From: Rhodospirillales bacterium
GTDB taxonomy: Bacteria; Pseudomonadota; Alphaproteobacteria; Acetobacterales; Acetobacteraceae
DNA length: 60,478 nucleotides
NCBI GenBank assembly: GCA_025351925.1
Contig: JANXVC010000412.1
Location: forward strand, 1-60,478
Direction: 5' to 3'
The notes beneath the pieces were generated by a model. It did not search any database. It was not told where the DNA came from and saw nothing but the letters and a program-made list of their open reading frames with translations. This document shows, piece after piece, positions 16,274 to 55,017 of this stretch. The position numbers were made by a program, and so were the translations under genes. Positions within the stretch are counted from its first letter, which is position 1, and each line of letters opens with the position of its first letter.

Positions 16274-16449
16274 CAATGCGCCTTGTCCGCTTCAGGCAGC
16301 CGGCTCAGCTTCTTGCCCTCGGCGATGAAACGTGCCGCCAAAACCAGCGTGCCCATGGTGAAATCCTTGCCATGCGCCGCGATCATCCCGTCCACGAGTT
16401 CGCCCAGCAGCTCGAAGTAGCGGTCTTTGGAAAGGGCTTCGTCGCTCAT
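16273..16449 (-). CDS. Small protein (58 aa) coupled to the WD40 gene, function unknown
   Basis: A 58-residue protein beginning [15 protein letters not shown] is encoded at the 3' end of a longer open frame that mostly overlaps the WD40 gene out of phase. Its ATG overlaps the WD40 stop codon (ATGA, 16449-16446), the same coupling seen at the two other junctions of this operon, which supports it as real. It is predicted to be soluble and helical, with hydrophobic patches LLGELVDGMIAA and LVLAARFIAEG and no Cys. I do not recognise a family. It is the last gene before the monooxygenase control region. Confidence 0.65.
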   Translation of the reverse strand: MSDEALSKDRYFELLGELVDGMIAAHGKDFTMGTLVLAARFIAEGKKLSRLPEADKAH

Positions 16450-22972: not shown

Positions 22973-23549
22973 TATTTGCTCCCCTGGTGCCCGGCCCGTT
23001 GTCCGGGCGTGTGTCTTGTTGAAGGCTAGCAGTGCAGAGCGGATTGCAACAGACGACTGTTTGACGATCGCGGAACGATTTCGACACGGCGGCGCTGCTG
23101 TTTATGCAAACGGCTTCATGCATCCAGCGGCCATCCCAAGCAGCGAACACCACTCGGCGGGGTCGGATTTGAGCTGTGAGGGTTCAGATTGCACCGAACG
23201 AGCTAAGTTCATCGATCTCTACTCACATCCACGTGATTTAGTGGCGCTGTATTCAATTGAATGGCCGTCACATGCGTATTTTGGATGGCTGCGCTGATGA
23301 AGGCGCTTGACTTGGCAAATCGAACGCTCTCACAGTTGAGTCAGAGCGGCTGACAGTCTCGCGACCACGCACCGGGCCATCAATGGCGCTGTCCCGGCGG
23401 TCCTACCAGTCCCGAACCCGGCCCACGCCGCTCAGGCTAATTTCCCAATGAACAGCAGGCGATCCTCAAACGGACCGGCCTGTGGTGAGCCGACGCACCC
23501 AGGTGGCGCGCCGTGTAATGGATTCACGCGAGGAGGGCGGGTTTAGCTG
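22973..23549. other. Intergenic region (577 bp) upstream of the tubulin-like operon, no gene supported
   Basis: The stretch is lower in GC than its neighbours. Its open frames have no ribosome site or recognisable product. It must hold the promoter for the leftward propeller gene and probably that of the rightward tubulin-like genes. A weak -24/-12-like element (TGGCAAA-N4-ACGCT) is at 23313-23328. AGGAGG at 23531-23536 is the likely ribosome site of the first tubulin-like gene. Confidence 0.4.
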
Positions 23550-25076
23550 ATGAGTGAGTCGATGGACGAGAAACTGAAGCGCCGCAAGCTGGACGCGCTC
23601 AAGCGGGGCATCCATCGCGTCAGCAGCACCGGGACGCTCGCGGTTTCGACGCATGTTGTTGGCATCGGCAAGGCCGGCGCTGGGGTCATTGCCGAGATCC
23701 TGCGTGGCTTGACGCCCGATGCGCCAAAGTTCTTCGGGCTTGCGATCGATATCGGCGATCAGGACCTCGCCGAACTGCGCGCGCTCGCCGCGGATCTCCC
23801 GCCAGACCGCGCCGATGTCACCATCATTGCGTTGGAGGTGCCCGAGCGCGAGGCTTTGCTGAGCGCCCTGCAGCATTATCCGGATTTCCTGACGCTCGAA
23901 TATCCGAATTTCTATTGGGCCGCAGGATATGAGCCCTGGCTGGCGCCGTCCGTCGAGTTGCCAAGGGCTGGCCAGCATTTCGGGCGTGCGGTCGCCAAAG
24001 CCATCTACGGACTGGCCTATTATGACGCGCCGCGCCGGTTGGAGCGCGTGCTGCGCGACTTTGCCGCTGGGGTCGAGGCGGCGACAGTGCAGTCAGTGGT
24101 GGCGATCGTGTTTGGCCTCGGCGGCGGGACCGGCAGCGGCATCGCGGTGGACCTCGCGCGTCATTTGTCGAACAAGCTGTTCGGCCGCCGCATCCTTGTG
24201 GCCGGCATCGGCATTGCGCCATGCACGGGCGACACGCCGGATCACGCCGGCGGGCATCTTTATCCGGTGCTGAACGAACTCGACTGCCTGAACGACGACG
24301 GCAAGAACCGCGGCGTGGTTGCGTCCTGCGGCGAGCTGTTCAGGAACCCATTCACCGCCGGGTTCATCGTGGTGCCACAGCAGCAGGTATGGGAGAGCAT
24401 CCAGAATCTTGCGGAGACGCAGCAACGGGGCAATCGGGAGATCGCTACGCTACTGTCATCGCGGGGCGGGACAAATTTTCTGGAGACGCTGCGCCTGCTG
24501 AACTGGGTCGCGGCACCTTCCACGCAGCACTCTGCGGCCCGGACGCCGTATGGACCCAAGTGGGTGCATATGTTTGGGTTTGCCGACGCCGATGGGTCGG
24601 CGATTCCGGTTGGGCCGGATCTAATCCGACAGCTAGGCCTGTTGCCGAGCTATCAGCCCGAGTTCGTCGAGGCGCGCGTGGCGTCCACGCCGAATACCGA
24701 CCCATGGGCGAGCCGCCTGCAGGAGGTCTTTGGGCCGGACGCTCCGCCACAAGTCGTGGATGGCGGCCGCGAGGGTTCTATCCAGTTCATCCTGCCATGC
24801 ATCAGCAAGACCGACCTGACCTTGTTCTATAAAGCGCGCGAGGCCTACGACGCCGAGGGCCAGGATAAACGTCTGCTCGATCACTCGTTGCTGCTGGAAC
24901 AAGGTGTATTGCTCAGCGAGCCATCGACCCGCCTTGAGGGGATGGCGGGGGCTGGGTTGCGGGGTAGCGGAAGCTGGGTAGCGATCCCGTTCGCCGACCT
25001 ACGCGGCGGCGAACCGGCACCGCGGCACGCTGCGGCATTCAAGCGTGAGTTGCATGGGCTGGGTCAGACGCTCTGA
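23550..25076 (+). CDS. Tubulin/FtsZ-superfamily GTPase, paralogue A
   Basis: The 508-residue protein has the layout of a tubulin-fold GTPase: an N-terminal nucleotide loop VVGIGKAGAG (about 36-45) and the tubulin signature G-box GLGGGTGSG (189-197), where GGGTGSG is the tubulin rather than the FtsZ form. With its neighbour at 25530 it shares LEYPxxYW, HFxRAVAKxIY, LARHLSN, FGRRI and LNxLDCxxDD (241-250) at matching positions. There is no signal peptide or membrane segment. Filament formation and role are unknown. The first Met has AGGAGG 13 bases away; a second Met four codons later (23562) is a possible start. Confidence 0.8.
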   Translation: MSESMDEKLKRRKLDALKRGIHRVSSTGTLAVSTHVVGIGKAGAGVIAEILRGLTPDAPKFFGLAIDIGDQDLAELRALAADLPPDRADVTIIALEVPEREALLSALQHYPDFLTLEYPNFYWAAGYEPWLAPSVELPRAGQHFGRAVAKAIYGLAYYDAPRRLERVLRDFAAGVEAATVQSVVAIVFGLGGGTGSGIAVDLARHLSNKLFGRRILVAGIGIAPCTGDTPDHAGGHLYPVLNELDCLNDDGKNRGVVASCGELFRNPFTAGFIVVPQQQVWESIQNLAETQQRGNREIATLLSSRGGTNFLETLRLLNWVAAPSTQHSAARTPYGPKWVHMFGFADADGSAIPVGPDLIRQLGLLPSYQPEFVEARVASTPNTDPWASRLQEVFGPDAPPQVVDGGREGSIQFILPCISKTDLTLFYKAREAYDAEGQDKRLLDHSLLLEQGVLLSEPSTRLEGMAGAGLRGSGSWVAIPFADLRGGEPAPRHAAAFKRELHGLGQTL

Positions 25077-25109
25077 AGCGTCACTCATAATGAATGAAGG
25101 AAACCTGTT

Positions 25110-25436
25110 ATGCCGCTTGACTGGTCGAAAGTCATGGATAAGTACGGATCAGGAGCACGGGTTCCGACCATAACAGGAGGTAAGTTTCTTCAGGTCTCCC
25201 ATGCGACCGAGCAGGCGATTCATATTGAGACACCAATATGGAGCGCTGCGCTGGAGCGAGACAATCTTGAGAAGGGAGTAAGGCTTATAGAAGAAGGTAC
25301 TATTTCTCCAGACCCAGGTCTTTTCGTCGAAGATTATATGCTTTATGTTTCAAACCAACGTGCCACGTCAGTCGCACATATCCTACGCGACCTAGGATTT
25401 TTAGATCAGAATGGGACGTTTTCTGTTAGATGTTAA
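25110..25436 (+). CDS. Small protein (108 aa) between the two tubulin-like genes, unknown function
   Basis: The 108-residue product starts MPLDWSKVMDKYGSG and has a good ribosome site (AAGGAA, 6 bases ahead). It looks soluble and mixed alpha/beta, with the ordered segment RATSVAHILRDLGFL near the end. I do not recognise a family. Its base composition is clearly more AT-rich than the flanking genes, suggesting separate origin or constraint, yet it is tightly placed between the paralogues (33 bases after the first, 93 before the second). A partner or regulator of the filament proteins is a reasonable guess only. Confidence 0.65.
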   Translation: MPLDWSKVMDKYGSGARVPTITGGKFLQVSHATEQAIHIETPIWSAALERDNLEKGVRLIEEGTISPDPGLFVEDYMLYVSNQRATSVAHILRDLGFLDQNGTFSVRC

Positions 25437-25529
25437 TGTCAAATCTGAATTAATCTTTGCCAGGCAGCTATTCAGACAATAGAACGTCACTGAAGCGCCA
25501 AACTGCAAATAATTACGGGAACCCATAAA

Positions 25530-27239
25530 ATGAGTGCATCGTTATATCATAGCGCAACCGGGACTCAGGCTCCGCATTGCATGCATGTCGTGGGCATCGG
25601 CCGCACTGGCGCCGCGTATGTCGAGGCGCTGCTGCGCACCGGCGAGATCGAGGACCATCTGGCAGACCCGCGGGCGACCTTCGCCTGCCTGGTGGTGGAT
25701 ATCGGCGATCAGGACATGGGGTTGGCGCAGGACTACGCAGCGTCCTTCGTCAAGCGCCTGGAGTCACGCGGCATTCCGTCCGATCGCTTCATGTTCCAGT
25801 CCATGGCGCTGCCAGTGCCGTCAAAAGACGATTTCTTTGAGGGAATGAACCGCACGCGTGAGTTCCTGAAGCTTGAATATCCCCGCTATTACTGGAACCC
25901 AAACTTCGAGTCCTACGTTCCGAAGAAGTTCAAGATGCCTGAGGCTGGCGAGCACTTCCCGCGCGCCGTCGCCAAGGGCATCTATGCCAACGCTTATTAT
26001 GCCGGCGACCGTCCGATGGATGTCGCGCTGCGCAAGTTTGTAGCCCACGTCGAGAAGGCCGGGCTGCCGTCGATGGTGACGGTCTGCTTCAGCCTCGCCG
26101 GCGGCACCGGCAGCGGCATGGTCATGGACCTCGCGCGGCATTTGTCCAACGTGAAGTTCGGACGGCGCATTCCGGTCATCGGCGTCGGCCAGCTGCCGCA
26201 TTCGGGTGACCCCGAAATCTACCGCGACAGCGCCGGCCTCTACACGACGCTGAACGACCTCGACTGCATGCTCGACGACGACAAGAACGCCGGTGTCACC
26301 GCAGTCTGGGGCGACCTGTATCGCAGCCCGTTCACCGGCGGCTTCTTCGTCGTGAACCCCGAGCACAGCTGGCAGCGCCTGACCGCCTACACCACCACGG
26401 GCGAGACCCGTATTCGTCAGCACGCCAAGGAGATGGTGACGAACCGCTTCGTCGCCGACAGCTTCATGCGGTTTGCCGTGGTCGATAACGGCCGCGACCT
26501 GTTCCGTGCCCTGCGCCCGTCAGGCCTGACCGGCGCGCCGCACGAGACCGTCAGCTCCAAGGCGCGGGCCTGGACTCTGTTCGACGTGGCGAAGCTGACC
26601 CATCCCGGCGTGCAGGTGCTGCCGGGCGAGGCGCCGTCGAAGTGGGACGACGTGATCTCGCAGTGGATCGACTTCACGCCACAGTACAGCGGCCTGAAGG
26701 ACGGCTTCAAGACCGACTACGCCGAGGTCACGATCTACGGCTCCCGCAACATGGGCCACGTCAACATGTCCAAGGCGTTCGAGGACATGGTGAAGAAGAA
26801 TTACCTGCTTGACGACGAGTCCAACCTGCAGATTGAGTTCCACGAGTTCTTCGACACGCTGACGGCCTATGCCAACGTCATCCTGCCCGGCCTCGCCAAG
26901 ACCGACCTCCTCGCGTTCTGGGCTGCGCAGGCCAACTACGACAAGCTGACCTGGGAAGACCGGCTGATCGAGCACGCCTGGCTCATCGACCTTGGCCCGA
27001 TGCTGTCCGAGCCGGCGATCCGGTTCCAGGGCATGGCCGGCGAGTGCTTCTGGGGCTGCGCCTGCTGGGTCGTCGTTTCGTATGACGAGCTGCGCGGCAC
27101 CGTGCTGCCGCCGCCGAACCGCAAGGTGATCGTCGAGGAGGGGATCGCGAAGATGGCAACCACCGTCGTCGCGACGCCGGGCGGCCTGGCGCCGAAGCGG
27201 GTCCGTACTGCGATGGCAGCGCCTGAGATGGCGTCGTAA
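25530..27239 (+). CDS. Tubulin/FtsZ-superfamily GTPase, paralogue B
   Basis: The 569-residue paralogue of the gene at 23550 has the nucleotide loop VVGIGRTGAA (20-29), VVDIGDQD in the second strand-loop, and the G-box LAGGTGSG (189-196), in which the first Gly of GGGTGSG is Ala. LNDLDCMLDDDKNAGV (241-256) sits at exactly the same residue number as in paralogue A. About 60 extra residues lie in the second half and C terminus, including a basic tail. Two unequal tubulin-fold subunits in one operon recall the BtubA/BtubB arrangement, though relationship and heteropolymerisation are unproven. Its GC content is normal for the window. Confidence 0.8.
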   Translation: MSASLYHSATGTQAPHCMHVVGIGRTGAAYVEALLRTGEIEDHLADPRATFACLVVDIGDQDMGLAQDYAASFVKRLESRGIPSDRFMFQSMALPVPSKDDFFEGMNRTREFLKLEYPRYYWNPNFESYVPKKFKMPEAGEHFPRAVAKGIYANAYYAGDRPMDVALRKFVAHVEKAGLPSMVTVCFSLAGGTGSGMVMDLARHLSNVKFGRRIPVIGVGQLPHSGDPEIYRDSAGLYTTLNDLDCMLDDDKNAGVTAVWGDLYRSPFTGGFFVVNPEHSWQRLTAYTTTGETRIRQHAKEMVTNRFVADSFMRFAVVDNGRDLFRALRPSGLTGAPHETVSSKARAWTLFDVAKLTHPGVQVLPGEAPSKWDDVISQWIDFTPQYSGLKDGFKTDYAEVTIYGSRNMGHVNMSKAFEDMVKKNYLLDDESNLQIEFHEFFDTLTAYANVILPGLAKTDLLAFWAAQANYDKLTWEDRLIEHAWLIDLGPMLSEPAIRFQGMAGECFWGCACWVVVSYDELRGTVLPPPNRKVIVEEGIAKMATTVVATPGGLAPKRVRTAMAAPEMAS

Positions 27240-27304: not shown

Positions 27305-28294
27305 ATGTCCAGCGCCGATCACCGCATCCCTGCCACCGTCGTCACTGGCTTCCTCGGCTCCGGCAAGACGACGCTGATCAACCGCATCCTCAGCGAGCGA
27401 CACGGCAAAAAGCTCGCCGTCATCGTCAACGAGTTCGGCGAGATCAGCATCGACGGCCAGCTCGTCATCCATGACGACCAGGCGCAGCTTGTCGAGTTCA
27501 ATAATGGCTGCCTGTGCTGCACGGTACGCGGCGACCTGATCGAAACGCTGGGCCGGCTGCAGGAACGCGCCGGCACGCTCGACGGCATCCTGATCGAAAC
27601 CACGGGGCTCGCCGACCCGGCCCCCGTCGCATCGACATTTTTCGCCGCCGACGAGGTGCGCGCCAACATCCGGCTCGACGCATTCGTCACCGTCGTCGAT
27701 GCGGTGAACCTCGAAATCAACCTCGCTCAGAGCAACGAGGCCGTCGAACAGGTCGCGTTCAGCGACATCATCCTCATCAACAAGACCGATCTGGTCACAC
27801 CAGCGCAAATCCAAGCGATCGAGGCGCGGCTTCGCAAGCTCAACCCGCTGGCGACGCTGCACCACACGACGAACGCCGATATCGACATCGCCAAGGTCAT
27901 CAACGTCGGCGCCTTCGACCTGGTGCAGAAGCTGGAGGTCGATCCCGAGTTCCTGGGCGACCACGAGCACGAGCACGACGCCGCAGTGGGATCGTTCGTG
28001 CTGCATGAGGAGCAGCCGATCGACATGAACCTATTCTCGCTCTGGATGAACGAATTGGCTCAGGCGCGCGGCGATGACCTGTATCGCACTAAAGGCATCT
28101 TCTACGCCCAGGGCTTCCGGGAGCGGGTGGTGTTCCAGAGCGTGCGCATGCTGACGACGATGCGGCCGGACCGGCTGTGGAACGACGGCGAGCAGCGCAT
28201 GTCGCAGTTCGTCGTCATCGGCAAGAACCTCGACCGCGAGGAGTTTGCCGCCGGGTTCGCGCGCTGCGTCGCCCGCGTGGCACGCGTCGCCTGA
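27305..28294 (+). CDS. CobW/COG0523-family GTP-dependent metallochaperone (copy 2)
   Basis: The 329-residue G3E GTPase has P-loop GFLGSGKTT (15-23), metal motif NNGCLCC (C69, C71, C72), ETTGLADPAP and NKTD, with a short His/Glu linker (DHEHEHD, 219-225) before the CobW C-terminal domain. It is clearly related to copy 1 at 17588 but has a much less His-rich linker, so metal preference may differ. It opens a four-gene unit with a 2Fe-2S ferredoxin-like protein, a DUF255 protein and a NiCoT permease, which points to nickel or cobalt handling. Confidence 0.9.
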   Translation: MSSADHRIPATVVTGFLGSGKTTLINRILSERHGKKLAVIVNEFGEISIDGQLVIHDDQAQLVEFNNGCLCCTVRGDLIETLGRLQERAGTLDGILIETTGLADPAPVASTFFAADEVRANIRLDAFVTVVDAVNLEINLAQSNEAVEQVAFSDIILINKTDLVTPAQIQAIEARLRKLNPLATLHHTTNADIDIAKVINVGAFDLVQKLEVDPEFLGDHEHEHDAAVGSFVLHEEQPIDMNLFSLWMNELAQARGDDLYRTKGIFYAQGFRERVVFQSVRMLTTMRPDRLWNDGEQRMSQFVVIGKNLDREEFAAGFARCVARVARVA

Positions 28295-28297
28295 TCG

Positions 28298-28669
28298 ATG
28301 GCGCGGGCCCGGGTCCAAGCCGCCGGCGATGGTCCCGAGCCGGTCTATCAGGTGCACGTGTTCTGTTGCACGAACGAGCGGCCGGAGACGCATTGGCGTG
28401 GCTCCTGCGCTCATAAGGGCAGCCGGGCGCTGTGCGACTACATGTGCCGGCTTGGCATGGTGATGGGCGCGCGCCGCATCCGCATCAACCACGCCGGCTG
28501 CATGAACGTCTGCGAGCATGGCCCTGTCATGGTGGTTTATCCCGAGGGCATTTGGTATAAGTACGAAACGCAAGCCGACGTCGCGGAGATCCTGCGCTGC
28601 CACGTCATGGACGGCGTCCCGGTGCAGCGCCTGATGGTCACGATCGACCCCGCCACGCTGCATGGCTGA
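28298..28669 (+). CDS. Thioredoxin-like (2Fe-2S) ferredoxin
   Basis: The 123-residue protein matches thioredoxin-like 2Fe-2S ferredoxins: VFCCTNERPE (C23/C24) and GSCAHKGS (C37) supply the first ligands, and HAGCMNVCEHGPVMVVYPEG (C68, C72) the second pair. Extra Cys are at 46, 50 and 101. It starts 3 bases after the CobW stop and overlaps the next gene by 8 bases, so the unit is tightly coupled. It would carry electrons or regulate; a reductive step in metal delivery is one possibility. Confidence 0.85.
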   Translation: MARARVQAAGDGPEPVYQVHVFCCTNERPETHWRGSCAHKGSRALCDYMCRLGMVMGARRIRINHAGCMNVCEHGPVMVVYPEGIWYKYETQADVAEILRCHVMDGVPVQRLMVTIDPATLHG

Positions 28670-30704
28670 ACCCCGCCCAGCGGGCACCCACAACCGCCTC
28701 GGGCTCAGCGACAGCCTCTACCTCCGCCAGCACAAGGACAACCCCGTCCACTGGCAGCCCTGGGACGACGAAGCCTTCGCTGTCGCCTCCGCGCAGGATA
28801 GGCCGATCCTGCTGTCGATCGGCTATGCCGCCTGCCATTGGTGCCACGTCATGGCGCGCGAGAGCTTCGCCGACCCGGCGACCGCCGCACTGATGAACGA
28901 GCTGTTTATCTGCATCAAGGTGGACCGGGAGGAACGGCCTGATCTCGACCGCTTTTACCTAGCGGCCGTGGCACGCCTAGGCCGGCCCGCTGGTTGGCCG
29001 CTGACCGCGTTCCTCACCCCGGACGGAACGCCGTTCAGCGGCGGTGGCTACTTCCCACCAGAGCCGCGTTTCGGCCTTCCCGCCTTCCGCGAGGTGCTGC
29101 GGGAGACCGCGGCCAGCTACCGTTCGGCGCCCGGCCGGGCCGCCGAGCTTGGCCGCGTCGTCATCGACGTCATCCAGGCCCGGCGTGCGGGCGGTGATGC
29201 CGATGTCTCGCCTATCCTGCTTGACCACGTCAGCCGCGCCCTCGCCGGCGGAATCGATGCACTGTATGGCGGTTTCGGCAATGACGGCCCAAAGTTCCTG
29301 CATGCGAGCGGGCATGAACTGCTGCTGCGTGCCTGGCAGCGCACCGGTGATGCGAATTATCTCAGCACAGTCGCAGGGTCGATGACGCAGATCGCAAACG
29401 GCGCGGTGTTCGACCATGTCGGCGGCGGGTTCCACCGCTACGCCGTCGATGACCGCTGGCGCGTGCCGCATTTCGAGAAGATGCTGAACGACAACGCGCT
29501 GATGATCCGGCTGTTGACGCAGCTTTGGCAGGCGACCAAGGACCCGCTATTCGCCGCCCGCACCCGCAGCACGATCAATTGGCTGTTACGCGAGATGCGC
29601 CTGCCCGGCGGCGGCTTCGCCTCGAGCGTCGCGGCGGACAGCGCCGACGGCGAGGGCGCGTTTTATCTCTGGACCGAGACCGAGCTGCGTGACGCCCTTG
29701 GCGATCAGACCCCGGCGTTCTTCAGCGCATTCGAAGCGGTCGCAGATGAGCGCCTTGCGGGACGGCTCGCGCTGATCCGCCCGTTCAAGGCGACCGCACC
29801 GACCCGTGACGACGCATTCGCCGCTGATCTCGCGACGCTGCGCGCGGTCCGTGAACAACGCGACCGGCCATTGCGCGACGGAAAATGCCTGGCTGATTGG
29901 AACGGCCTCGTAATCGCCGCCCTGGTCGAGGCAGGCTTGACGTTTGACCGGACGGATTGGATCACCGAGGCGCAGAATGCCTTCGACGCGGTGCTGCGGC
30001 GGCTCGGAGCCGGGTCACGCCTGGCGCATAGGGTGGCGGGCAGCGCGCTAGCCTCGGGGGCGATGCTCGATGACTACGCGGCGCTGGCGCTGGCAGCGCT
30101 GGCGCTGCATGAGGCGACCGCCGATCCCGCATTCCTCGACCACGCGCTCGGCTGGGAACAGGTCTTGGACACGCAGTTCTGGGACGACGAGGAGGGCGGC
30201 TATTTCCTGACCGCCATGGACGCCGAACAGCGCATCCCGCGGCAGAAACTCATCGACGAGAACTCATCCCCCGCCGGCAATGGCCTCATGCTGGGCGTGC
30301 TGGCCCGGCTGCACGGCCTTACCGGACGAGATCGCTTTCGGCACCGCTTCGAGGGAATCCTGCGCTGCTTTGCTGATCGCATGTCGCGCGCCGGGCTGCA
30401 GGCGGCAACGGCGCTCTGCAACAGCCAGGTGCTCGGACAGCTCACACAGGTCGTGGTCGTCGGCGATGGCGGGCCAGCGGCGGCACTTCGGCACGCGGCG
30501 GCACAGCACTATTTGGCGGACCGCCTGCTGGTGAGCACAGCCAGCGGCGCGACCTTGCCTGAGGGGCATCCGGCCCACGGCAAGGCCACGCCGCAGGACA
30601 GGCCCGCCGCCTATGTCTGCTTTGGGCCGCGCTGCCTGCCTCCGGTATGGACGGCCGAGGCGCTCAGTCATCTGCTTTGCAACCTACGAGGGGGAATTTC
30701 GTGA
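28662..30704 (+). CDS. DUF255 thioredoxin-domain protein (YyaL/SPATA20 family)
   Basis: The 680-residue protein has an N-terminal thioredoxin-fold domain beginning NRLGLSDSLYLRQHKDNPVHW with the CxxC motif ACHWCH (C58, C61) and the family hallmark KVDREERPDLDRFY. A long (alpha/alpha)6-type barrel follows, as in N-acylglucosamine epimerase-like enzymes (GGFHRYAVDDRWRVPHFEKM, LNDNALM). It is cytosolic. Substrate and role of this widespread family are not established. It overlaps both neighbours (8 bases upstream, 4 downstream). Confidence 0.9.
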   Translation: MAEPRPAGTHNRLGLSDSLYLRQHKDNPVHWQPWDDEAFAVASAQDRPILLSIGYAACHWCHVMARESFADPATAALMNELFICIKVDREERPDLDRFYLAAVARLGRPAGWPLTAFLTPDGTPFSGGGYFPPEPRFGLPAFREVLRETAASYRSAPGRAAELGRVVIDVIQARRAGGDADVSPILLDHVSRALAGGIDALYGGFGNDGPKFLHASGHELLLRAWQRTGDANYLSTVAGSMTQIANGAVFDHVGGGFHRYAVDDRWRVPHFEKMLNDNALMIRLLTQLWQATKDPLFAARTRSTINWLLREMRLPGGGFASSVAADSADGEGAFYLWTETELRDALGDQTPAFFSAFEAVADERLAGRLALIRPFKATAPTRDDAFAADLATLRAVREQRDRPLRDGKCLADWNGLVIAALVEAGLTFDRTDWITEAQNAFDAVLRRLGAGSRLAHRVAGSALASGAMLDDYAALALAALALHEATADPAFLDHALGWEQVLDTQFWDDEEGGYFLTAMDAEQRIPRQKLIDENSSPAGNGLMLGVLARLHGLTGRDRFRHRFEGILRCFADRMSRAGLQAATALCNSQVLGQLTQVVVVGDGGPAAALRHAAAQHYLADRLLVSTASGATLPEGHPAHGKATPQDRPAAYVCFGPRCLPPVWTAEALSHLLCNLRGGIS

Positions 30705-31762
30705 CCAGCCCGCTTACCCGCATGTTCAACGATCGCGCCGGCAGCCTGCGCGGGCCGATCACCGGCATCTACGCGCTGCTGCTGCTCGGCAACGTCGCCG
30801 CCTGGATCTGGGCCATCGTCCTGTTCCGCCATCAGCCGGTGCTGCTGGGCACGGCGCTGCTGGCCTATGGCTTCGGGCTGCGTCACGCCGTGGACGCCGA
30901 CCACATCGCCGCCATCGACAACGTCACCCGCAAGCTCATGCAGGAGGGCAAGCGGCCGGTCTCGGTCGGGCTGTTCTTTGCGCTGGGCCACTCCACCGTC
31001 GTGGTGCTGGTGGCCGCGGTCATCGCTGCCTCGACGGTCGCGCTGCAGGCGACGTTCGAGGGTTTCCGCGAGGTTGGCGGCGTGATCGCCACCAGCGTGT
31101 CCACGCTGTTCCTTTTCGTCATCGCGGCGATCAATCTGATGGTGCTGCTTGGCGTCTGGCGCACCTACCGGCACGTGCGGGCCGGTGGAGTGTATCAGGA
31201 GGCGGACCTCGACATCCTGCTCAACCAGCGCGGCCTGCTGGCGCGGCTGTTCCGCCCGGTGTTCCGCCTGATCACGCGGAGCTGGCACATGCTGCCGCTC
31301 GGCTTCCTGTTCGGCCTCGGGTTCGACACCGCGACGGAGATCAGCATCCTCGGCATCTCTGCGACCGAGGCGGCGCGCGGCGTCTCGATGTGGTCGATCA
31401 TGGTGTTCCCCGCGCTGTTCGCCGCCGGCATGACCCTGGTCGATACGACAGACGGCATCCTGATGCTCGGCGCCTATGACTGGGCCTACGTCAAGCCGAT
31501 GCGCAAGCTGTACTATAACCTGACGATCACCTCGGTGTCGGTCGTGGTCGCGGTGGTGATCGGATCGATTGAAGGCTTGCGGCTGATCGGCAATCAGCTT
31601 GCCCTCGACGGCGGCTTTTGGACCGGCGTCGCCCTGCTCAACGAAAACTTCAACACCCTCGGCTTCATCATCGTCGGCCTGTTCATCGTAAGCTGGGCCG
31701 TCTCGGCCGTGATCTACCGGGTCAAGGGCTTGGACCACGTAGAGGTCCGCCTCTCGCCTTAG
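30701..31762 (+). CDS. NiCoT-family nickel/cobalt permease (HoxN/NixA type)
   Basis: The 353-residue inner-membrane protein has the family signature RHAVDADHIAAIDNVTR (HX4DH) in its second helix, LGHSTVVV in the third and LGFDTATEI later, with eight expected transmembrane segments. I chose the GTG at 30701, which overlaps the DUF255 stop (GTGA) and has GAGGGGG 7 bases ahead, over a Met 18 codons upstream that lies inside DUF255. It imports Ni2+ or Co2+ with high affinity; which one cannot be told. No urease or hydrogenase is in the window. Its 3' end overlaps the convergent glycosyltransferase by 41 bases. Confidence 0.9.
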   Translation: MTSPLTRMFNDRAGSLRGPITGIYALLLLGNVAAWIWAIVLFRHQPVLLGTALLAYGFGLRHAVDADHIAAIDNVTRKLMQEGKRPVSVGLFFALGHSTVVVLVAAVIAASTVALQATFEGFREVGGVIATSVSTLFLFVIAAINLMVLLGVWRTYRHVRAGGVYQEADLDILLNQRGLLARLFRPVFRLITRSWHMLPLGFLFGLGFDTATEISILGISATEAARGVSMWSIMVFPALFAAGMTLVDTTDGILMLGAYDWAYVKPMRKLYYNLTITSVSVVVAVVIGSIEGLRLIGNQLALDGGFWTGVALLNENFNTLGFIIVGLFIVSWAVSAVIYRVKGLDHVEVRLSP

Positions 31763-48395: not shown

Positions 48396-49526
48396 ATGGC
48401 ACGCTTGCAGCATAGGGGAATGACATCGGAACCCTGGCGAGTGGGCGTGCTGTTCTCGACGACCGGCTTCATGGCAGTCATTGAGGAAACGCAGCTCCGC
48501 GGCACGCTGCTCGCCATCGATGAAATCAACGCAGCCGGCGGCATCGACGAGCGCGAGATCATGCCCGTGCTGTATAACCCGGCCTCGGAGACCTCGGCAT
48601 TCGGCCACTACGCCAAACGGCTCATGGTCACCGACGACATCACCACAATCTTCGGCTGCTACACTTCCAGCAGCCGCAAGGCCGTGCTGCCGGTCGTGGA
48701 GCGGCTCAACGGCCTGCTCTGGTATCCGACACTGTACGAAGGCTTCGAGTTCTCGCCGAACGTCATCTACACCGGCGCCGCGCCCAACCAAAACAGCGTG
48801 GCGCTCTGCCGCTTCCTGATCGCCAATTACGGGCTGCGCTTCTACTTCATCGGTTCCGACTACATCTATCCGCGCGAGTCCAACCGCATCATGCGGGGCA
48901 TTATCCGCAGCAACGGCGGCGAGGTCGCCGGCGAGCGCTACGTCGGCCTGCGCGCCAAGCCGGCGGACTTCCTGCCGGTCATGCGCGACATCCAGGAGCT
49001 ACGGCCCGACGTCATCTTCTCGACCGTGGTCGGCGACGCCACCGTGGCACTTTATCAGGCCTGCGCCGACGCCGGCCTCGATCCCAAGGTCACGCCGATC
49101 GCCAGCCTGACGACTACCGAGGCGGAGATACGCGCCATGGGCTTCGATGTCGGTGAGGGGCACATCACCGCGGCGCCGTACTTCCAGGGCAGCGGCGGCG
49201 AGCGCGACGCGTCGTTCGTCAGCCGCTATAAAAAACGCTACGGCGAGGACGAGCCGACCAACATGTGCGTCGAGGCCGCCTACTTCCAGGTGCATATCTT
49301 CGCCAAGGCACTCGAGGCCACGAACTCGATGGATACCGACATTCTGCGGCCGATGGTGCTGGGCTCCTCGCTCGACGCGCCGCAGGGCCGGGTCTCGATC
49401 GACGCCAGCCACCATACCAGCCTGTGGACGCGGATCGGCCGGGCGAATCGGCGCGGCCAGTTCGAGGTGCTGCAGCAGTCCCGCTCGGCGGTGCTCGCCG
49501 ACCCGTTCATGATCGGCTGCGGATGA
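48396..49526 (+). CDS. AmiC-like cytosolic amide/urea-binding sensor, pair 2
   Basis: The 376-residue protein is a second binding-fold sensor: VGVLFSTTGFMAVIEE, DEINAAGGIDEREI, FGCYTSSSRKAVLPVVERL, WYPTLYEGFEFSPN, FYFIGSDYIYPRESNRIM, VIFSTVVGDATVALYQ. There is no export signal. AGGGAC lies 8 bases ahead of the ATG at 48396; a later Met (48420) is possible. Its stop overlaps the amiR start (ATGA), so sensor and antiterminator are made in step. It is more like UrtA than is the first AmiC. Confidence 0.9.
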   Translation: MARLQHRGMTSEPWRVGVLFSTTGFMAVIEETQLRGTLLAIDEINAAGGIDEREIMPVLYNPASETSAFGHYAKRLMVTDDITTIFGCYTSSSRKAVLPVVERLNGLLWYPTLYEGFEFSPNVIYTGAAPNQNSVALCRFLIANYGLRFYFIGSDYIYPRESNRIMRGIIRSNGGEVAGERYVGLRAKPADFLPVMRDIQELRPDVIFSTVVGDATVALYQACADAGLDPKVTPIASLTTTEAEIRAMGFDVGEGHITAAPYFQGSGGERDASFVSRYKKRYGEDEPTNMCVEAAYFQVHIFAKALEATNSMDTDILRPMVLGSSLDAPQGRVSIDASHHTSLWTRIGRANRRGQFEVLQQSRSAVLADPFMIGCG

Positions 49527-50110
49527 CACGGCTGCCCACCGAGGTGTCTGGCCTGGATGTCGTGGTCGCGGCGGCACGCGACGCGTCCGGAGAGACGCTG
49601 ATCCGCGAGCTGCAGCGCACGCGCGCCCGGGTGCGGCATTTCTGGCCGCCGCCCGACCCGTTGCCCTCGGACACCGACGCGCTGTTCTGCGACCTCGTGC
49701 CCAGCCTGCCGGCGCGGCTGCCCTGGCTGCCCGGCGAGCCCAAAGCGGCGCTCGTGGTGCTGATGCCACCGACCGAGACAGCGCTGGACCTCGACTTGCT
49801 GCGCAAGGCGGCGCCCGAGGCGGTGCTGCACCGTCCGTTCACCGCACCGGCCATCCTCGCAGCCCTTGTGCTCGCGCGCTCCCGTTTTGCCTATGAGCGC
49901 CGGCTGCGCGGACGGATCGAGCGGCTGGATATGACGCTGCGCTCGATGCATAGCGTGGAGCGGGCGAAGGCGATCCTGATGGGCGCGCGCAAGATGCAGG
50001 AGGAGGACGCCTATCGTTTCATCCGCAGCCAGGCGATGGAGCGGCGCGTCTCCGTCGGCGCGGTCGCAACGGCGATCGTTGACGCGCACGAGCTGATCGG
50101 CTTACGCTAA
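49523..50110 (+). CDS. AmiR-like ANTAR antiterminator protein, pair 2
   Basis: The 195-residue protein starts at the ATG overlapping the amiC stop; the frame is open upstream only because it shadows amiC. The N-terminal pseudo-receiver (LDVVVAAARDASGETLIRELQ) leads to a coiled coil (RRLRGRIERLDMTLRSMHSVERAKAIL) and an ANTAR domain (KMQEEDAYRFIRSQAMERRVSVGAVATAIV). It should bind the dual-hexaloop leader RNA 58 bases downstream of its own stop and prevent termination ahead of urtA. Confidence 0.92.
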   Translation: MTRLPTEVSGLDVVVAAARDASGETLIRELQRTRARVRHFWPPPDPLPSDTDALFCDLVPSLPARLPWLPGEPKAALVVLMPPTETALDLDLLRKAAPEAVLHRPFTAPAILAALVLARSRFAYERRLRGRIERLDMTLRSMHSVERAKAILMGARKMQEEDAYRFIRSQAMERRVSVGAVATAIVDAHELIGLR

Positions 50111-50212: not shown

Positions 50213-50259
50213 CCGTAACGACCATCACTGATGGCCGGTGCGGGGGCATTTTGTGTTTT
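50209..50259 (+). terminator. Intrinsic terminator in the urt leader (antitermination switch)
   Basis: GCCCCCG (50209-50215) pairs with CGGGGGC (50241-50247); inside it CCATC/GATGG (50222-50226, 50230-50234) forms a second stem. The T-rich tail ATTTTGTGTTTT (50248-50259) follows at once. It lies 22 bases before the urtA start and shares its 5' arm with ANTAR hairpin P2. Confidence 0.88.
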
Positions 50260-50281
50260 GGTCATGGCAAGGGGAAGACAG

Positions 50282-51526
50282 ATGGGCTTTAGTCGGAGAG
50301 GTTTGCTCAAGGGCGTGCTGGCGGCGGGTTCGGCTGGCGCCGCCGGGTTTCCGCAGATTTGGATCAAGGACGCCTCGGTCGCCTACGCGGCCACTGGCGA
50401 CATCAAGGTGGGAGTGCTGTTCTCGCTGACCGGCACGACGGCGATCATCGAGGAGTCGCTGAACAAGGCGACCATCATGGCGATCGAGGAGATCAACGCG
50501 GCCGGCGGCGTCAACGGCCGCAAGATCACCCCGATCATCGAGGATCCGGCCTCCGACCCCGCCACCTTCGCCGAGAAGGCGCGCAAATTGGTGGTCGGCG
50601 ACAAATGCGTCAGCGTGTTCGGCTCCTACACCTCGGCGAGCCGCAAGGCGGTGCTGCCGGTGTTCGAGCGGCAGAACAACCTGTACTGGTACCCAACGCT
50701 ATACGAGGGCCGCGAATGCTCGAAGAACGTGATCTACACGGGCGCCGTGCCGAACCAGCAGCAGGATGAGTTCATCCCGTATCTGATCAAGAACTTCGGC
50801 AAGAAGTTCTTCCTGATCGGATCGAACTACATCTATCCGAAGGAGGAGAACAACTACTGCAAGAAGCTGCTGGAGAAGTACGGCGGCGAGGTGGTCAACG
50901 AGGAATACGTGCCGCTCGGGCACTCCGAGTTCAGCTCGGTCATCAACAAGATCCGCAACTCGCAGCCGAACGTCATCTTCTCGACCGTGGTCGGCGACTC
51001 CGTCGTGGCGCTGCACCGGCAGTATCGCGCGGCGGGGTTCGATCCTGAAAAGATGCCGATGGCCAGCCTGACAACGTCGGAAAACGAGATCGCGGCGATG
51101 GGCGGCGACGCGGCGGCGGGGCACTTCACCTCGGCACCGTATTTCATGGTGCATAAATCGCCGGAGAACGAGCGGTTCGTCGCGGCCTACAAGAAGCGCT
51201 GGGGCCAGGACAAGGTGACGCACTTCGTCTCCGAGGCGTGCTATTTCCAGGCGTATTTGTTTAAACAAGCGGTCGAGAAGCTCGGCGATAAGGACCTCAC
51301 GCCCAATGCCATACGCGACGCCACCATGGGCCAGGAGATGATGGCGCCGCAGGGCCGCGTGCGCATCGAGCCGGAGAACCTGCACACCTGGCTGTGGCCG
51401 AAGATCGCCCGCGCCAAGTCGGACGGGCAGTTCGAAATCCTGGTCGAGGCCAAGGAGTGGCTGAAACCGGTGCCCTACGCCGCCTATCCCGGCCAGGTCT
51501 GCACCGCGAAGGGCCTGCAGAGCTAA
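50282..51526 (+). CDS. urtA: Urea/short-chain amide ABC transporter substrate-binding protein, Tat-exported
   Basis: The 414-residue binding protein has a twin-arginine signal (MGFSRRGLLKGVLAAGSAGAAG, R5-R6). The mature part shows the UrtA/AmiC fold: VGVLFSLTGTTAIIEE, EEINAAGGVNGRKI, FGSYTSASRKAVLPVFE, WYPTLYEGRECSKN, FFLIGSNYIYPKEENNY, VIFSTVVGDSVVAL. The ATG at 50282 is chosen over upstream Met codons lying in the terminator because GGGGAAG precedes it and it opens the Tat signal. It delivers urea, or formamide/acetamide, to UrtBC in the inner membrane; FmdD of amide operons is the same family. Confidence 0.92.
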   Translation: MGFSRRGLLKGVLAAGSAGAAGFPQIWIKDASVAYAATGDIKVGVLFSLTGTTAIIEESLNKATIMAIEEINAAGGVNGRKITPIIEDPASDPATFAEKARKLVVGDKCVSVFGSYTSASRKAVLPVFERQNNLYWYPTLYEGRECSKNVIYTGAVPNQQQDEFIPYLIKNFGKKFFLIGSNYIYPKEENNYCKKLLEKYGGEVVNEEYVPLGHSEFSSVINKIRNSQPNVIFSTVVGDSVVALHRQYRAAGFDPEKMPMASLTTSENEIAAMGGDAAAGHFTSAPYFMVHKSPENERFVAAYKKRWGQDKVTHFVSEACYFQAYLFKQAVEKLGDKDLTPNAIRDATMGQEMMAPQGRVRIEPENLHTWLWPKIARAKSDGQFEILVEAKEWLKPVPYAAYPGQVCTAKGLQS

Positions 51527-51580
51527 GGACCAGCGCCGCCGCGACCGAGACTTGGCGCGGCGGCAGCCAAAGGGCGCCAC

Positions 51581-52450
51581 ATGGATTTCGTCGCACAGCA
51601 ACTCCTGACCGGCCTCAGCATCGGCTCCATCCTGCTGCTGATCGCGCTGGGGCTCGCCATCATCTACGGCACAATGGGCGTCATCAACCTGGCGCACGGC
51701 GAGTTCGTCATGCTGGGCGCCTACGCCGCCTGGGCGTTGCAGAGCTTCGCCGGCATCGGGCTGCTGCCCAGCCTGCCGCTCATCTTTATCATTGTCGCCG
51801 CATTCGGCTGGGGGATCGAGCGGCTGGTGATCCGGCATCTGTATCGCCGCCCGCTCGACACCATCCTCGCCACCTGGGGGATCGGCGTCATGCTGCAGCA
51901 GATCGTGCGCCTGCTGGCCGGCGGGGAATTACGCTATGTGCAGCTCCCGCCCTCACTGTCGCGCCCCGTCACCATCTTCGGCCAGGAGATCGCGAGCTTC
52001 CGCGTGTTCATCTTTTTTGGCGTGGCAGCATTGTTCGCGCTCACCTGGCTGCTGATCAACCGCACCTCGCAGGGCATGCGGCTGCGCGCCGTCGTGCAGG
52101 ACCCGGCCATCGCCTCCTGCTTCGGCATCAACGCTGACCGGGTCTATGCCGTGACCTTCGCCTATGGCGCCGGGCTGGCCGGGCTGGCGGGCGCGCTGGT
52201 GGCGCCGCTCAAGAGCGTTTCGCCCGAGATGGGCACCACCTACGTCGTGGACGCCTTCATGGTCGTCGTCGTCGGCGGCGTGCAGAGCCTGTTCGGCGCG
52301 GTGGTCAGCGCGGCACTGCTCGGCGAGGCGTCCGGCGTGCTCGGCTTCCTGTCCAACGACACGGTAGCGAAGGCGGCGGTGCTGCTGGCCGTCGTCGTGC
52401 TGATCCGCTTCCGACCGCAGGGGCTGTTCGCCGCACGGGGCCGTGCCTGA
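51581..52450 (+). CDS. urtB: Urea/amide ABC transporter permease 1
   Basis: The 289-residue LivH-type permease has about eight helices and the family segment LGLAIIYGTMGVINLAHGEFVMLGAYAAW near the N terminus, with GINADRVYAVTFAYGAGLAGLAGAL and PEMGTTYVVDAFMVVVVGG later. It lacks the long extra N-terminal domain of cyanobacterial-type UrtB. It overlaps urtC by one base at the stop/start junction (ATGA type). Confidence 0.93.
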   Translation: MDFVAQQLLTGLSIGSILLLIALGLAIIYGTMGVINLAHGEFVMLGAYAAWALQSFAGIGLLPSLPLIFIIVAAFGWGIERLVIRHLYRRPLDTILATWGIGVMLQQIVRLLAGGELRYVQLPPSLSRPVTIFGQEIASFRVFIFFGVAALFALTWLLINRTSQGMRLRAVVQDPAIASCFGINADRVYAVTFAYGAGLAGLAGALVAPLKSVSPEMGTTYVVDAFMVVVVGGVQSLFGAVVSAALLGEASGVLGFLSNDTVAKAAVLLAVVVLIRFRPQGLFAARGRA

Positions 52451-53574
52451 TGACAAAACGCGGCAACATTCAGATCGCCGTCTATGCGTTCGTCTGTCTG
52501 GTGATCCTGCTGCTGCCGTTCGTGCTCGGCAACGACTACCTGCTGAACCGCATCGCCCGCTATCTCGTGCTCGGCCTGCTCGCGATGTCGCTCAGCCTGT
52601 GCTGGGGCTATGCCGGCATCCTCAACCTCGGCCAGGCGCTGAGCTTCGGCATCGGCTCGTACTGCATGGCAATGACGCTGAAGCTGCGCACCGTCCCGGT
52701 GCAGACCGGCGCCGGCGGGCTGCCCGACTTCATGGTCTGGAACAACGTCGAGACGCTGCCCTGGCTCTGGGTGCCGTTCCACTCCACCACGTTTGCCCTA
52801 CTGGCCGGCATCGGCGTCCCAGTGCTGCTGGCGGCGCTGCTGGGCTGGTTCATGTTCAAGGGCCGGGTAACCGGCGTCTATGTCGCCATCATCACGCTGG
52901 CGGCGCTCGTGGTCGGCAACCTGCTGGTCATCGACGCGCAGGCCTACACCGGCGGCTTCAACGGCCTTACTGACCTCGCTCAACTAGAGCTGTTCGGCAT
53001 CACCTTCGACGCCTATGGCCGCAGCACCTACTATCTCTGCGCCATCTGCCTGACCTTCAGCCTGTTCGCTGCCCTGGCGCTCACCCGCAGCAAGACCGGG
53101 CTCATCCTCCAGGCCGTTCGCGACCAGGAAAATCGGGTGCGCTACTTCGGCTACGACGTCGCGCACTACAAAAGCTTTGCGCTGTGTGTTTCCGCTGGGT
53201 TCGCCGGCCTTGCGGGCATGCTCTACACCGTAGTGATGGAGTTCGCCTCGCCCACGTTCATGGGCGTGCCGCTCAGCCTGTCCGTCGTAGTGTGGTGCGC
53301 GGTGGGCGGCCGGTCCAGCCTGCTCGGCGCCACGCTGGGCGCCATCATCGTCGCCGGCATGCAGAACGTGCTGTCGGAGCAGCGCGCGTTCCTCGAGACC
53401 TGGACGCTCATCATGGGCGCCATTTTTGTTCTTGTAGTGCTGTTCCTGCCGAAGGGCCTGGCGGGTCTCTCCGAAGCCATCGCGGGGCGGCTTGATCGCA
53501 GCCGGCCCAGCGCCTTGGTTTCCGACGCCGTCACAGTCGAGAAAAACATTGCGTTGCCCGAGGTGCGCCGGTGA
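52450..53574 (+). CDS. urtC: Urea/amide ABC transporter permease 2
   Basis: The 374-residue LivM-type permease has about ten helices with LSLCWGYAGILNLGQALSFGIGSYC, GRVTGVYVAIITLA, LILQAVRDQENRVRYFGYDV and SFALCVSAGFAGLAGMLY. The insertion between helices (TVPVQTGAGGLPDFMVW) is typical of UrtC. Its TGA overlaps the GTG start of urtD. Confidence 0.93.
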   Translation: MTKRGNIQIAVYAFVCLVILLLPFVLGNDYLLNRIARYLVLGLLAMSLSLCWGYAGILNLGQALSFGIGSYCMAMTLKLRTVPVQTGAGGLPDFMVWNNVETLPWLWVPFHSTTFALLAGIGVPVLLAALLGWFMFKGRVTGVYVAIITLAALVVGNLLVIDAQAYTGGFNGLTDLAQLELFGITFDAYGRSTYYLCAICLTFSLFAALALTRSKTGLILQAVRDQENRVRYFGYDVAHYKSFALCVSAGFAGLAGMLYTVVMEFASPTFMGVPLSLSVVVWCAVGGRSSLLGATLGAIIVAGMQNVLSEQRAFLETWTLIMGAIFVLVVLFLPKGLAGLSEAIAGRLDRSRPSALVSDAVTVEKNIALPEVRR

Positions 53575-54332
53575 GAGCCGCCTCCAACCACCTGCAACTG
53601 AGCGATATCTCGGTCAGCTTCAGCGGTTTCCGCGCGGTGGACGGCCTCAATCTCGGCGTGGCCCGCGGTGAGCTGCGCTGCCTGATCGGGCCGAACGGCG
53701 CGGGCAAGACCACCTGCCTCGACCTGATCTGCGGCAAAACTAAGCCCAGCGCCGGGTCGATCCGGCTCGACACTCGCGAGCTGACGACGCTGGAAGAGCA
53801 CCAGATCGCCCGTGCCGGGGTGGGGCGCAAGTTCCAGGTGCCGAGCGTGTTCCGCGAGCTGACGGTGCGGGAGAACCTGGAGGTGGCGCACTGCAAGTCC
53901 GTCGGCGTGTTCGCCAACGCGCTGCGTTTTGGGCGCAGCACCGAGACCGATGGCCTGGAGAAGCTGGCTGAGCTGGTCGGCATCGAGGACCGCCTCGGCC
54001 AACCCGCCGCCTACCTCTCGCACGGCGAGACGCAGTGGCTGGAGATCGCCCTGCTGATCGCGCAGAACAGCGAACTCATCCTGATGGACGAGCCGACCGC
54101 CGGCATGACCGCGCAGGAGACCCGCAAAACCGCAGAACTGTTCCTGCGCCTGAAGGGCCGCCATACACTGATCGTGGTCGAGCACGACATGGGCTTCATC
54201 CGTGAGATCGGCGACGTGATCTCGGTGATGCACCAGGGCCGCATGCTGGCCGAGGGCACGGTGCACGAGATCGAGGCCGACCCCGAGGTCCAACGCGCCT
54301 ATCTCGGCTCCGGCGGGATCAGCCATGCTTGA
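53571..54332 (+). CDS. urtD: Urea/amide ABC transporter ATPase 1
   Basis: The 253-residue LivG-type ATPase starts at GTG 53571. Walker A is GPNGAGKTT, the signature is LSHGETQWLEIALLIA in place of LSGGQ (typical for UrtD), and Walker B is LILMDEPTAGM. It forms a heterodimer with UrtE on the UrtBC permease. It overlaps urtE by 8 bases. Confidence 0.93.
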   Translation: MRAASNHLQLSDISVSFSGFRAVDGLNLGVARGELRCLIGPNGAGKTTCLDLICGKTKPSAGSIRLDTRELTTLEEHQIARAGVGRKFQVPSVFRELTVRENLEVAHCKSVGVFANALRFGRSTETDGLEKLAELVGIEDRLGQPAAYLSHGETQWLEIALLIAQNSELILMDEPTAGMTAQETRKTAELFLRLKGRHTLIVVEHDMGFIREIGDVISVMHQGRMLAEGTVHEIEADPEVQRAYLGSGGISHA

Positions 54333-55017
54333 GCTTTCCGGCGTCAACGCGTTCTACGGCTACAGCCGGGCGCTGCAGGACATCGGCCTGCAGGTCGGGC
54401 GCGGCGAGTTGCTCAGCGTGCTCGGCCGCAATGGTGTCGGCAAGACCACGCTGCTGCGCGCCATCATGGGCCTGATGGACCGCACGACCGGCAGCATCCG
54501 GCTGGACGGCGCGGAGATCGGCGAGGCGCGCACCGACCTGCGCGCTAAGGCGGGCATCGGCATCGTGCCGCAGGGCCGCGGCATCCTGCCGCGCTTCACC
54601 GTGCTGGAGAACCTGCGCCTCGGTCTATTCGCCGACGCGCGGGGCCGTCGCGACATCGACCCGCAGGTGTTCGAGTTCTTTCCAATACTACGAGAAAACC
54701 TCGGGCGGCTTGGCGGCAACCTGTCGGGCGGGCAGCAGCAGCTCGCCTTGGCCCGGGCGCTGCTGACCAATCCCAAGGTGATCCTGCTGGACGAGCCGAC
54801 CGAGGGCATCCAGCCGAACATCGTCGAGGAGATCGAGGCGATCATCATCCGGCTCAACCGCGAGCACGGCACGACGATCGTGCTCGTGGAGCAGAACGTC
54901 GCCTTCGCGCGCCGGGCGTCGCAGCGCTTCGTCATCATGGAAAAAGGGGGGATCGCGGCCGCAGGACCCATCAACGAACTGACCGACGAGCTGGTTCACC
55001 GTCACATGGCCGTCTGA
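54325..55017 (+). CDS. urtE: Urea/amide ABC transporter ATPase 2
   Basis: The 230-residue LivF-type ATPase has Walker A GRNGVGKTT, signature LSGGQQQLALARALL and Walker B VILLDEPTEGIQP. It is the last of the five transporter genes; formamidase follows after 34 bases. The absence of urease genes and the presence of formamidase suggest that short amides, rather than or as well as urea, are carried. Confidence 0.93.
   Translation: MLELSGVNAFYGYSRALQDIGLQVGRGELLSVLGRNGVGKTTLLRAIMGLMDRTTGSIRLDGAEIGEARTDLRAKAGIGIVPQGRGILPRFTVLENLRLGLFADARGRRDIDPQVFEFFPILRENLGRLGGNLSGGQQQLALARALLTNPKVILLDEPTEGIQPNIVEEIEAIIIRLNREHGTTIVLVEQNVAFARRASQRFVIMEKGGIAAAGPINELTDELVHRHMAV

Follow-up and report, generated by a model that had tools for sequence, protein, structure and literature searches.

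We analysed a stretch of 60,478 nucleotides from a Rhodospirillales bacterium of the Acetobacteraceae (assembly GCA_025351925.1, contig JANXVC010000412.1, positions 1 to 60,478; hereafter the window), with particular attention to three consecutive genes on its forward strand, here called A, S and B. A and B encode two proteins of the tubulin family, and S a small protein between them; 33 bases separate A from S and 93 bases separate S from B. A preliminary description of this DNA had placed three genes here, and we reproduced the coordinates and lengths that it gave for them. The names AnhA, AnhE and AnhB in the rows below refer to the acetonitrile hydratase of Rhodococcus jostii RHA1, to which we return.

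23550..25076, + strand: A, AnhA-like subunit of the tubulin family (508 amino acids (aa); open reading frame)
25110..25436, + strand: S, AnhE-like small protein, probable cobalt metallochaperone (108 aa; open reading frame)
25530..27239, + strand: B, AnhB-like subunit with predicted tubulin fold (569 aa; open reading frame)
27045..27065, + strand: codons of the cysteine claw C506 F W G C510 A C512 in B, proposed cobalt site (from the reading frame)

The triplet and its tubulin-family proteins

A and B are homologous (34% identity over 526 aa, E 5e-79) and share a series of motifs: LEYPNFYW at residue 116 of A and LEYPRYYW at 115 of B, HFGRAVAKAIY (143) and HFPRAVAKGIY (142), a T4-type G-box that reads GGGTGSG (191) in A and AGGTGSG (190) in B, and LNELDCLNDD and LNDLDCMLDD, both at 241, the latter being the T7-like loop of B. 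The preliminary description had quoted these motifs as common to both proteins at near-identical residue numbers, and we recovered the same positions. The profile search that it had proposed gave a divided answer: B lies exactly at the cut-off of Pfam Tubulin_2 (27.0 bits, cut-off 27), A falls below it (21.8 bits), and both remain below the cut-off of 33 for Pfam Tubulin/FtsZ. No NCBIfam family matched A, S or B at E up to 0.1, the nitrile hydratase families included, nor did any nitrile hydratase family of Pfam at E up to 1. A sequence search of the PDB found no convincing solved relative of A or B (best E 0.015).

An AlphaFold2 model of B, built from 51 aligned A and B proteins, has a mean predicted local distance difference test score (pLDDT) of 83.2 and a predicted template modelling score (pTM) of 0.86. 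The best 50 PDB matches of this model in Foldseek are CetZ, tubulin, TubZ and FtsZ proteins (best E 3.1e-11, to CetZ), with low whole-chain template modelling scores of 0.32-0.46 by query and 0.46-0.61 by target. VIA-align gave a Z of 22.6 to CetZ1 (324 residues, root-mean-square deviation 4.8), 21.6 to FtsZ and 20.0 to tubulin; the match to BtubAB, with a Z of 19.9 over 375 residues (model residues 14..534), is no higher than those to FtsZ or CetZ. As a prediction, the tubulin fold of B is well supported, and A probably adopts the same fold given its 34% identity to B.

With B alone as query, a single scan of species genomes yielded 25 loci, the loci of the own genome (L001-L003) being left out. 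A, S and B stand in the same order and on one strand in all 25, B being cut by a contig end in L018 and A lying in pieces in L022. Seventeen of these loci are from Pseudomonadota, six from cyanobacteria, one from Myxococcota and one from Bacillota, and the nearest relatives of the window (L004 and L005) are 92% identical in B. The same order is found on three Rhodococcus plasmids, those of RHA1, BAA-870 and VT6 (5 of the 15 plasmid records found were examined). The preliminary description saw here two paralogous tubulin-fold GTPases of unequal length with a small gene between them, and named an absent fold or a random neighbourhood as what would speak against it; the A/B homology, the fold predicted for B and the constant order of the three genes all agree with its view.

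In a tree of 64 rows, A and B fall on two separate branches, each with support 100/100, which places the A/B duplication before the spread of the operon; rows shorter than 370 aa had been removed, namely both pieces of A from L022 and a 131-aa fragment of B from L007. The triplet is rare and patchy: it occurs in 4 of 100 relatives (own genome counted), in the own genome only among the 397 genomes of a phylum sample, and in the centre genome only among 292 genomes of a further sample; because the family is so rare, wider sampling added little. In another genus of the window's family, a B homologue (G041:C998:4702-6351, L039; 64%) carries one in-frame TGA.

The nucleotide site is largely retained. 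The G-box [GD]GTGSG is present in 30/30 B rows and TGSG in 23/29 A rows, and the T7-like loop pattern shows the same counts (30/30 B, 23/29 A). Five of the six A proteins that have lost TGSG at that place also lack the cysteine claw described below. The retention of G-box and T7-like loop makes a tubulin-like A:B dimer that holds guanosine triphosphate (GTP) likely, and the conserved site and loop suggest that GTP would be bound between the two subunits, where it may serve assembly or maturation.

The cysteine claw and the acetonitrile hydratase of Rhodococcus

Plasmid pRHL2 of R. jostii RHA1 carries, in this order, an aliphatic amidase gene, A (514 aa), S (99 aa, 11.09 kDa), B (568 aa), a small helix-turn-helix gene and a nickel transporter gene, the triplet having locus tags RHA1_RS41530-41540. 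The window proteins match their counterparts there with 38% identity over 497 aa for A (E 5e-112), 34% over 99 aa for S (E 5e-26) and 48% over 565 aa for B (E 0). The positional counterpart scores best for both large subunits, narrowly for A (331 bits vs 253 bits in the cross comparison) and with 523 vs 330 bits for B. RefSeq labels the first RHA1 subunit 'tubulin-like' and gives it no function.

To our knowledge, acetonitrile hydratase is an orphan among nitrile hydratases, a cobalt enzyme unlike the classical family. Its sequence reportedly does not resemble those of classical nitrile hydratases, and it is said to have been purified as AnhA/AnhB, AnhA taking up cobalt with the help of AnhE. 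The mass of AnhE is reportedly 11.1 kDa, and that computed for the small RHA1 protein is 11.09 kDa. With this mass and the gene order in mind, we take the three RHA1 genes to be anhA, anhE and anhB.

Passages of the published work attribute to RHA1 a cobalt acetonitrile hydratase with the gene order alpha-AnhE-beta (PMC3680314, PMC3511329, PMC7193024) and describe AnhE as a metallochaperone, not a subunit-swapping chaperone (PMC3680314, PMC3511329). A conflicting passage lists the acetonitrile hydratase of RHA1 with the enzymes that mature through self-subunit swapping, in a paper that also applies the names AnhD/E/A to an enzyme of classical kind (PMC7329996). The nitrile substrates listed for RHA1 are acetonitrile, acrylonitrile, propionitrile and butyronitrile (PMC6941271). 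The preliminary description knew of no described system with this layout; the triplet on pRHL2, together with the order given in these passages, supplies one, and the layout is not new in kind. We found no published statement of a tubulin fold for acetonitrile hydratase in open-licence PMC papers and, as far as these show, the predicted fold would be new. The pNit plasmid of R. rhodochrous BAA-870 (L031) has a complete triplet, an amidase gene and CbiQ-type cobalt uptake genes on a nitrile plasmid; the genome paper of this strain reports nitrilases together with a cobalt nitrile hydratase of low molecular weight, and the word 'tubulin' does not occur in its main text (PMC6941271).

A cysteine claw lies near the end of the conserved part of B, which reads GECFWGCACW there and contains C506-x3-C510-A-C512. 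The A protein of the window has lost its own C-terminal claw and reads GAGLRGSGSW instead. All 28 testable A/B pairs have at least one claw C-x3-C-x-C: both subunits carry it at 12 loci, from cyanobacteria, gammaproteobacteria and other groups; B alone has it at another 12, which comprise the window, its relatives and further alpha/beta-proteobacteria; and A alone has it at 4 (RHA1, BAA-870, VT6 and the Alicyclobacillaceae locus L025). In L018 no claw was seen in either subunit, B being cut by the contig end before that place, and in L022 the claw is visible in the second piece of the broken A. The classical pattern C[TSA]LC[SAT]C is absent from all six frames of the window.

On the tree the claw label changes 5 times, against a mean of 19.1 in shuffles. 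By our reading of the tree, third paralogues that lack the claw account for two of these changes and the truncated B of L018 for another, so that a single loss in each of A and B would remain. The third paralogue is a shorter B-like gene without claw, found at L011, L012, L016, L021 and L027 and on Agrobacterium and Shinella plasmids, and it arose from B at least twice. It was noted at these five loci and at L029 and L033, and adjoins MoxR/VWA genes in rhizobial loci; in the 25-kb stretch of the Shinella plasmid that was read, it stands with MoxR/VWA genes, and that stretch showed neither A nor S nor a complete B.

We infer that the claw is a cobalt site like that of classical nitrile hydratase, reached independently. 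Since the A of the window has no claw, the cobalt site would in the window have to be in B, whereas the claw of RHA1 is in A; AnhA is presumably the cobalt-carrying subunit of the RHA1 enzyme, which would fit this location. The candidate metal ligands and the apparent switch of the claw between subunits seem to be new as far as open-licence PMC papers show.

The small protein S is 108 aa long in 24 of the 25 loci and 111 aa in the other. Its C-terminal Cys108 is kept in 26/26 rows, window included, and is absent from the three Rhodococcus proteins. An AlphaFold2 model of S (pLDDT 89, pTM 0.81) predicts a short alpha/beta fold with four strands, for which the PDB holds no convincing relative (Foldseek best E 0.18, VIA best Z 4.0). 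No Pfam family matched S at E up to 1, tetratricopeptide repeats (TPR) included. Bklc is a kinesin-light-chain-like TPR protein, and the analogy to it that the preliminary description drew finds no counterpart in the fold or family matches of S. The S of the Alicyclobacillaceae locus L025 (6039-6371) has three extra residues and ends in RCVWC, giving two terminal cysteines. A second small protein of about 100 aa lies away from the triplet in L017 (15431-15733, +) and L007 (2187-2483, -), with 37-38% identity to S and no C-terminal cysteine; the L007 one was not counted among the S rows.

Homology, gene order, the predicted fold of B, cysteine conservation and the gene neighbourhood lead us to regard A-S-B as, very probably, a nitrile hydratase system of anhA-anhE-anhB type, in which a tubulin-like A:B heterodimer would use a cobalt site to convert small nitriles into amides. 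The cobalt would most likely be held by C506, C510 and C512 of B, with C510-A-C512 as the counterpart of the classical C-S-C core. S may act as a cobalt chaperone of AnhE type, the CobW protein encoded after B may help to select or insert the metal, and a NicO-type transporter would import it. The amide would then be hydrolysed to acid and ammonia, in the window perhaps by the amidase FmdA. We give about even chances to the following history: an ancestral tubulin-family pair with a claw in each subunit lost opposite claws by lineage, so that the catalytic subunit would be A in Rhodococcus and Alicyclobacillaceae but B in the window and in the alpha/beta-proteobacteria related to it, and GTP held at the interface would control assembly or metal loading. 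Nitrile hydratase chemistry would then have been invented a second time, independently, on a cytoskeletal fold.

Metal, amide and monooxygenase genes around the triplet

B is followed on its own strand by CobW after 65 bases and, 3 bases further on, by a ferredoxin gene; by the open reading frame calls, a DUF255 gene overlaps the latter by 8 bases and is itself overlapped by NicO by 58. NicO thus lies in B's own run, and the AmiC-like, AmiR-like and FmdA genes lie 21-28 kb from B.

27305..28294, + strand: CobW/COG0523 GTPase, probable metal-insertion partner (Pfam cobW 197.6 bits, CobW_C 75.8 bits)
28298..28669, + strand: (2Fe-2S) thioredoxin-like ferredoxin (best match NF041612, 70 bits vs cut-off 150; recurs in relatives)
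28662..30704, + strand: DUF255/thioredoxin-like protein, membership in the system unsure (Pfam PF03190 213 bits; homologue in 4 other loci)
30647..31762, + strand: NicO-type nickel/cobalt importer, end of the run (Pfam NicO 347 bits; TIGR00802 425.8 bits, over cut-off)
48396..49526, + strand: AmiC-like amide-binding protein (68% to its counterpart in an Agrobacterium triplet locus)
49523..50110, + strand: AmiR-like ANTAR regulator (Pfam AmiR_N 51 bits and ANTAR 52 bits, both over cut-off)
50231..55017, + strand: urea/amide-type ATP-binding cassette (ABC) transporter, binding protein with UrtB, UrtC, UrtD and UrtE-like components (UrtB/C/D over cut-off)
55052..56281, + strand: formamidase/acetamidase FmdA, candidate for the step from amide to acid (NF045496 686 bits, cut-off 500; Pfam FmdA_AmdA)
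6245-19641, - strand: propane/methane-monooxygenase-like cluster (two Phenol_Hydrox subunits, reductase, GroEL-like chaperonin, amidohydrolase)

In the ABC transporter, UrtE is 0.8 bits under its cut-off and the substrate-binding protein is also under. Three AmiC/UrtA-like binding proteins (46933-48159, -; 48396-49526, +; 50231-51526, +) surround the one AmiR-like regulator.

Neighbours were counted in the window and 30 loci, 31 sources in all, and contig ends cut many of these stretches short. AmiE is present in 18/31, CobW in 24/31 and a cobalt/nickel importer in 16/31, two of the importers being weak matches (L007 and L008, 28-30%) and a 47-aa CbiM match in L011 being left out. The neighbours of the relatives include the aliphatic amidase AmiE, AmiC/AmiR-type genes, MoxR and VWA pairs, CbtA/CbtB, CbiM/CbiQ, NicO and CobW. 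The triplet could be a cobalt (or nickel) hydrolase of the RHA1 enzyme family that acts on something else, such as thiocyanate, cyanate or an aldoxime-derived nitrile, as its identity of only 34-48% to RHA1, its spread over four phyla besides Actinomycetota and the lack of AmiE in the window would allow; yet AmiE and genes of AmiC type also turn up in distant loci, those of cyanobacteria and Alicyclobacillaceae among them, and the window holds FmdA, AmiC and AmiR, so that we find such a reading most unlikely.

The monooxygenase cluster also holds a sigma-54 activator, a WD40 protein, a CobW and a zinc alcohol dehydrogenase. In flanks of up to 10 kb, none of its monooxygenase subunits turned up next to any of the 25 relatives, and the cluster is a neighbour of the triplet, not a conserved partner. 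We rejected the idea that A-S-B organises the adjacent monooxygenase: the cluster is on the opposite strand, and when genes of the cluster served as queries against the 25 loci, matches came from the sigma-54 activator and CobW alone and reflect likeness at the family level. A dependence of the triplet on sigma-54 regulators was also rejected, as no GG/GC-core site scoring at least 8/11 was present in 22,900-23,560. The best sigma-54 promoter-like site of the window, which agrees with the consensus at 10/11 letters, is at 19700 (-), immediately upstream of the cluster's alcohol dehydrogenase end and next to a sigma-54 activator gene.

The preliminary description had proposed a new cytoskeletal or scaffolding role, in which A and B would polymerise like BtubA/B or CetZ and scaffold catabolic enzymes, with S as an accessory binder. 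The tubulin fold with its match to BtubAB, and the G-box and T7-like loop counts given above, are what such a role would lead one to expect. The claw, however, is kept in 28/28 testable pairs with no evident scaffold use, the recurring partners are cobalt and amide genes with no monooxygenase subunits among them, and we take the counterpart in RHA1 for a nitrile hydratase, so that we find a scaffold most unlikely. A cytoskeletal pair with a Bklc-like partner was set aside as best reading on the same metal and amide neighbours, on the claw and on an S without TPR.

Genes for classical nitrile hydratase occur elsewhere in many of these genomes. The classical alpha subunit scored over cut-off in 20/25 triplet genomes and 0/14 control genomes, and in 51/299 genomes of a separate sample of the window's phylum (50/298 without the own genome), that phylum being taken as Pseudomonadota from the window's nearest relatives. 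Compared with this background, the Pseudomonadota triplet genomes (15/17 vs 50/298, Fisher p 1e-9) and all triplet genomes (20/25, p 1e-10) are enriched, with p-values that serve as a guide only, since the loci are related, some near-identical, and the 8 other genomes come from phyla outside the sample. This enrichment indicates that the triplet accompanies nitrile users, and because most triplet genomes have a classical alpha, the triplet is not their sole nitrile hydratase in most cases. The classical motif is within the stretch in one of the 30 loci L004-L033 (L008 only). Iron nitrile hydratases have a CobW-type activator, according to a passage in PMC2770081.

These figures could also mean that A-S-B works as a GTP-driven maturation machine, one that supplies cobalt to a classical nitrile hydratase whose gene lies elsewhere in the genome. 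The high proportion of genomes with classical alpha, far over background, the CobW, MoxR and VWA-type accessory genes nearby and the classical motif near the L008 triplet can all be read in this way; yet 5/25 triplet genomes are without classical alpha and the motif is near only that one triplet. The triplet is very rare (1/397 genomes) and classical alpha common (51/299), which indicates that classical enzymes mature without it, and the RHA1 enzyme was reportedly purified as AnhA/AnhB itself. We attach little probability to a maturation role of this kind.

Several points weigh against the nitrile hydratase reading that we prefer. AmiE and CbtA/CbiM are absent from the window, the window's genome has no close AmiE (best 34%), and FmdA is 28 kb from B, beyond unrelated genes. 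The spacing of the claw is C-x3-C vs C-x2-C in the classical enzyme. Three classical alpha genes elsewhere in the window's genome make the triplet not its only route, and no classical nitrile hydratase was seen in the 5/25 triplet genomes mentioned above. The anh names of the RHA1 locus are drawn from gene order, mass and context. The Rhodococcus AnhE proteins have no C-terminal cysteine and those stretches have no CobW, so that the maturation route is not uniform. Finally, the near-copies L012/L029 and L004/L005 are not independent.

Comparison with known systems

If the nitrile hydratase reading is right, a tubulin-fold GTPase pair has turned into a metalloenzyme with identifiable metal ligands, and the hydration of nitriles arose twice in evolution. 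The family would then offer targets for studying the role of the nucleotide in an enzyme related to filament proteins, 25 genome loci of acetonitrile-hydratase type would be added for nitrile biocatalysis, and the public labels 'hypothetical' or 'tubulin-like' would be corrected.

The closest system is the acetonitrile hydratase of RHA1, which shares with the window the order alpha-AnhE-beta, near-full-length homology of all three proteins and a claw in one subunit, and whose locus is adjoined by an amidase and a nickel transporter. It differs in that the claw of the window is on B and that of RHA1 on A, in the CobW and ferredoxin genes that directly follow the window triplet, in the terminal Cys108 of the window's S, and in the window's lack of AmiE.

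With classical nitrile hydratase the triplet would share the proposed chemistry, an association with cobalt and amidase genes, and a cysteine-rich claw with a C-x-C core. The classical subunits are about half the length of A and B; no nitrile hydratase family matches A, S or B, the predicted fold here is that of tubulin, and the claw reads C-x3-C-x-C whereas the genome's own classical alphas read C-x2-C-S-C.

Tubulin, FtsZ, CetZ and TubZ have in common with B the predicted fold (Z up to 22.6), the T4 G-box and the T7-like loop. In contrast, the claw stretch of B (506-512) lies beyond the end of most of the listed FtsZ matches (model residues 454-467), and the gene context is one of metal and amide genes. 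BtubA/BtubB with Bklc likewise consist of two unequal tubulin paralogues and a small gene, but S has no TPR or other Pfam match, the neighbours of the triplet are metal and amide genes, and the A/B family carries the claw.

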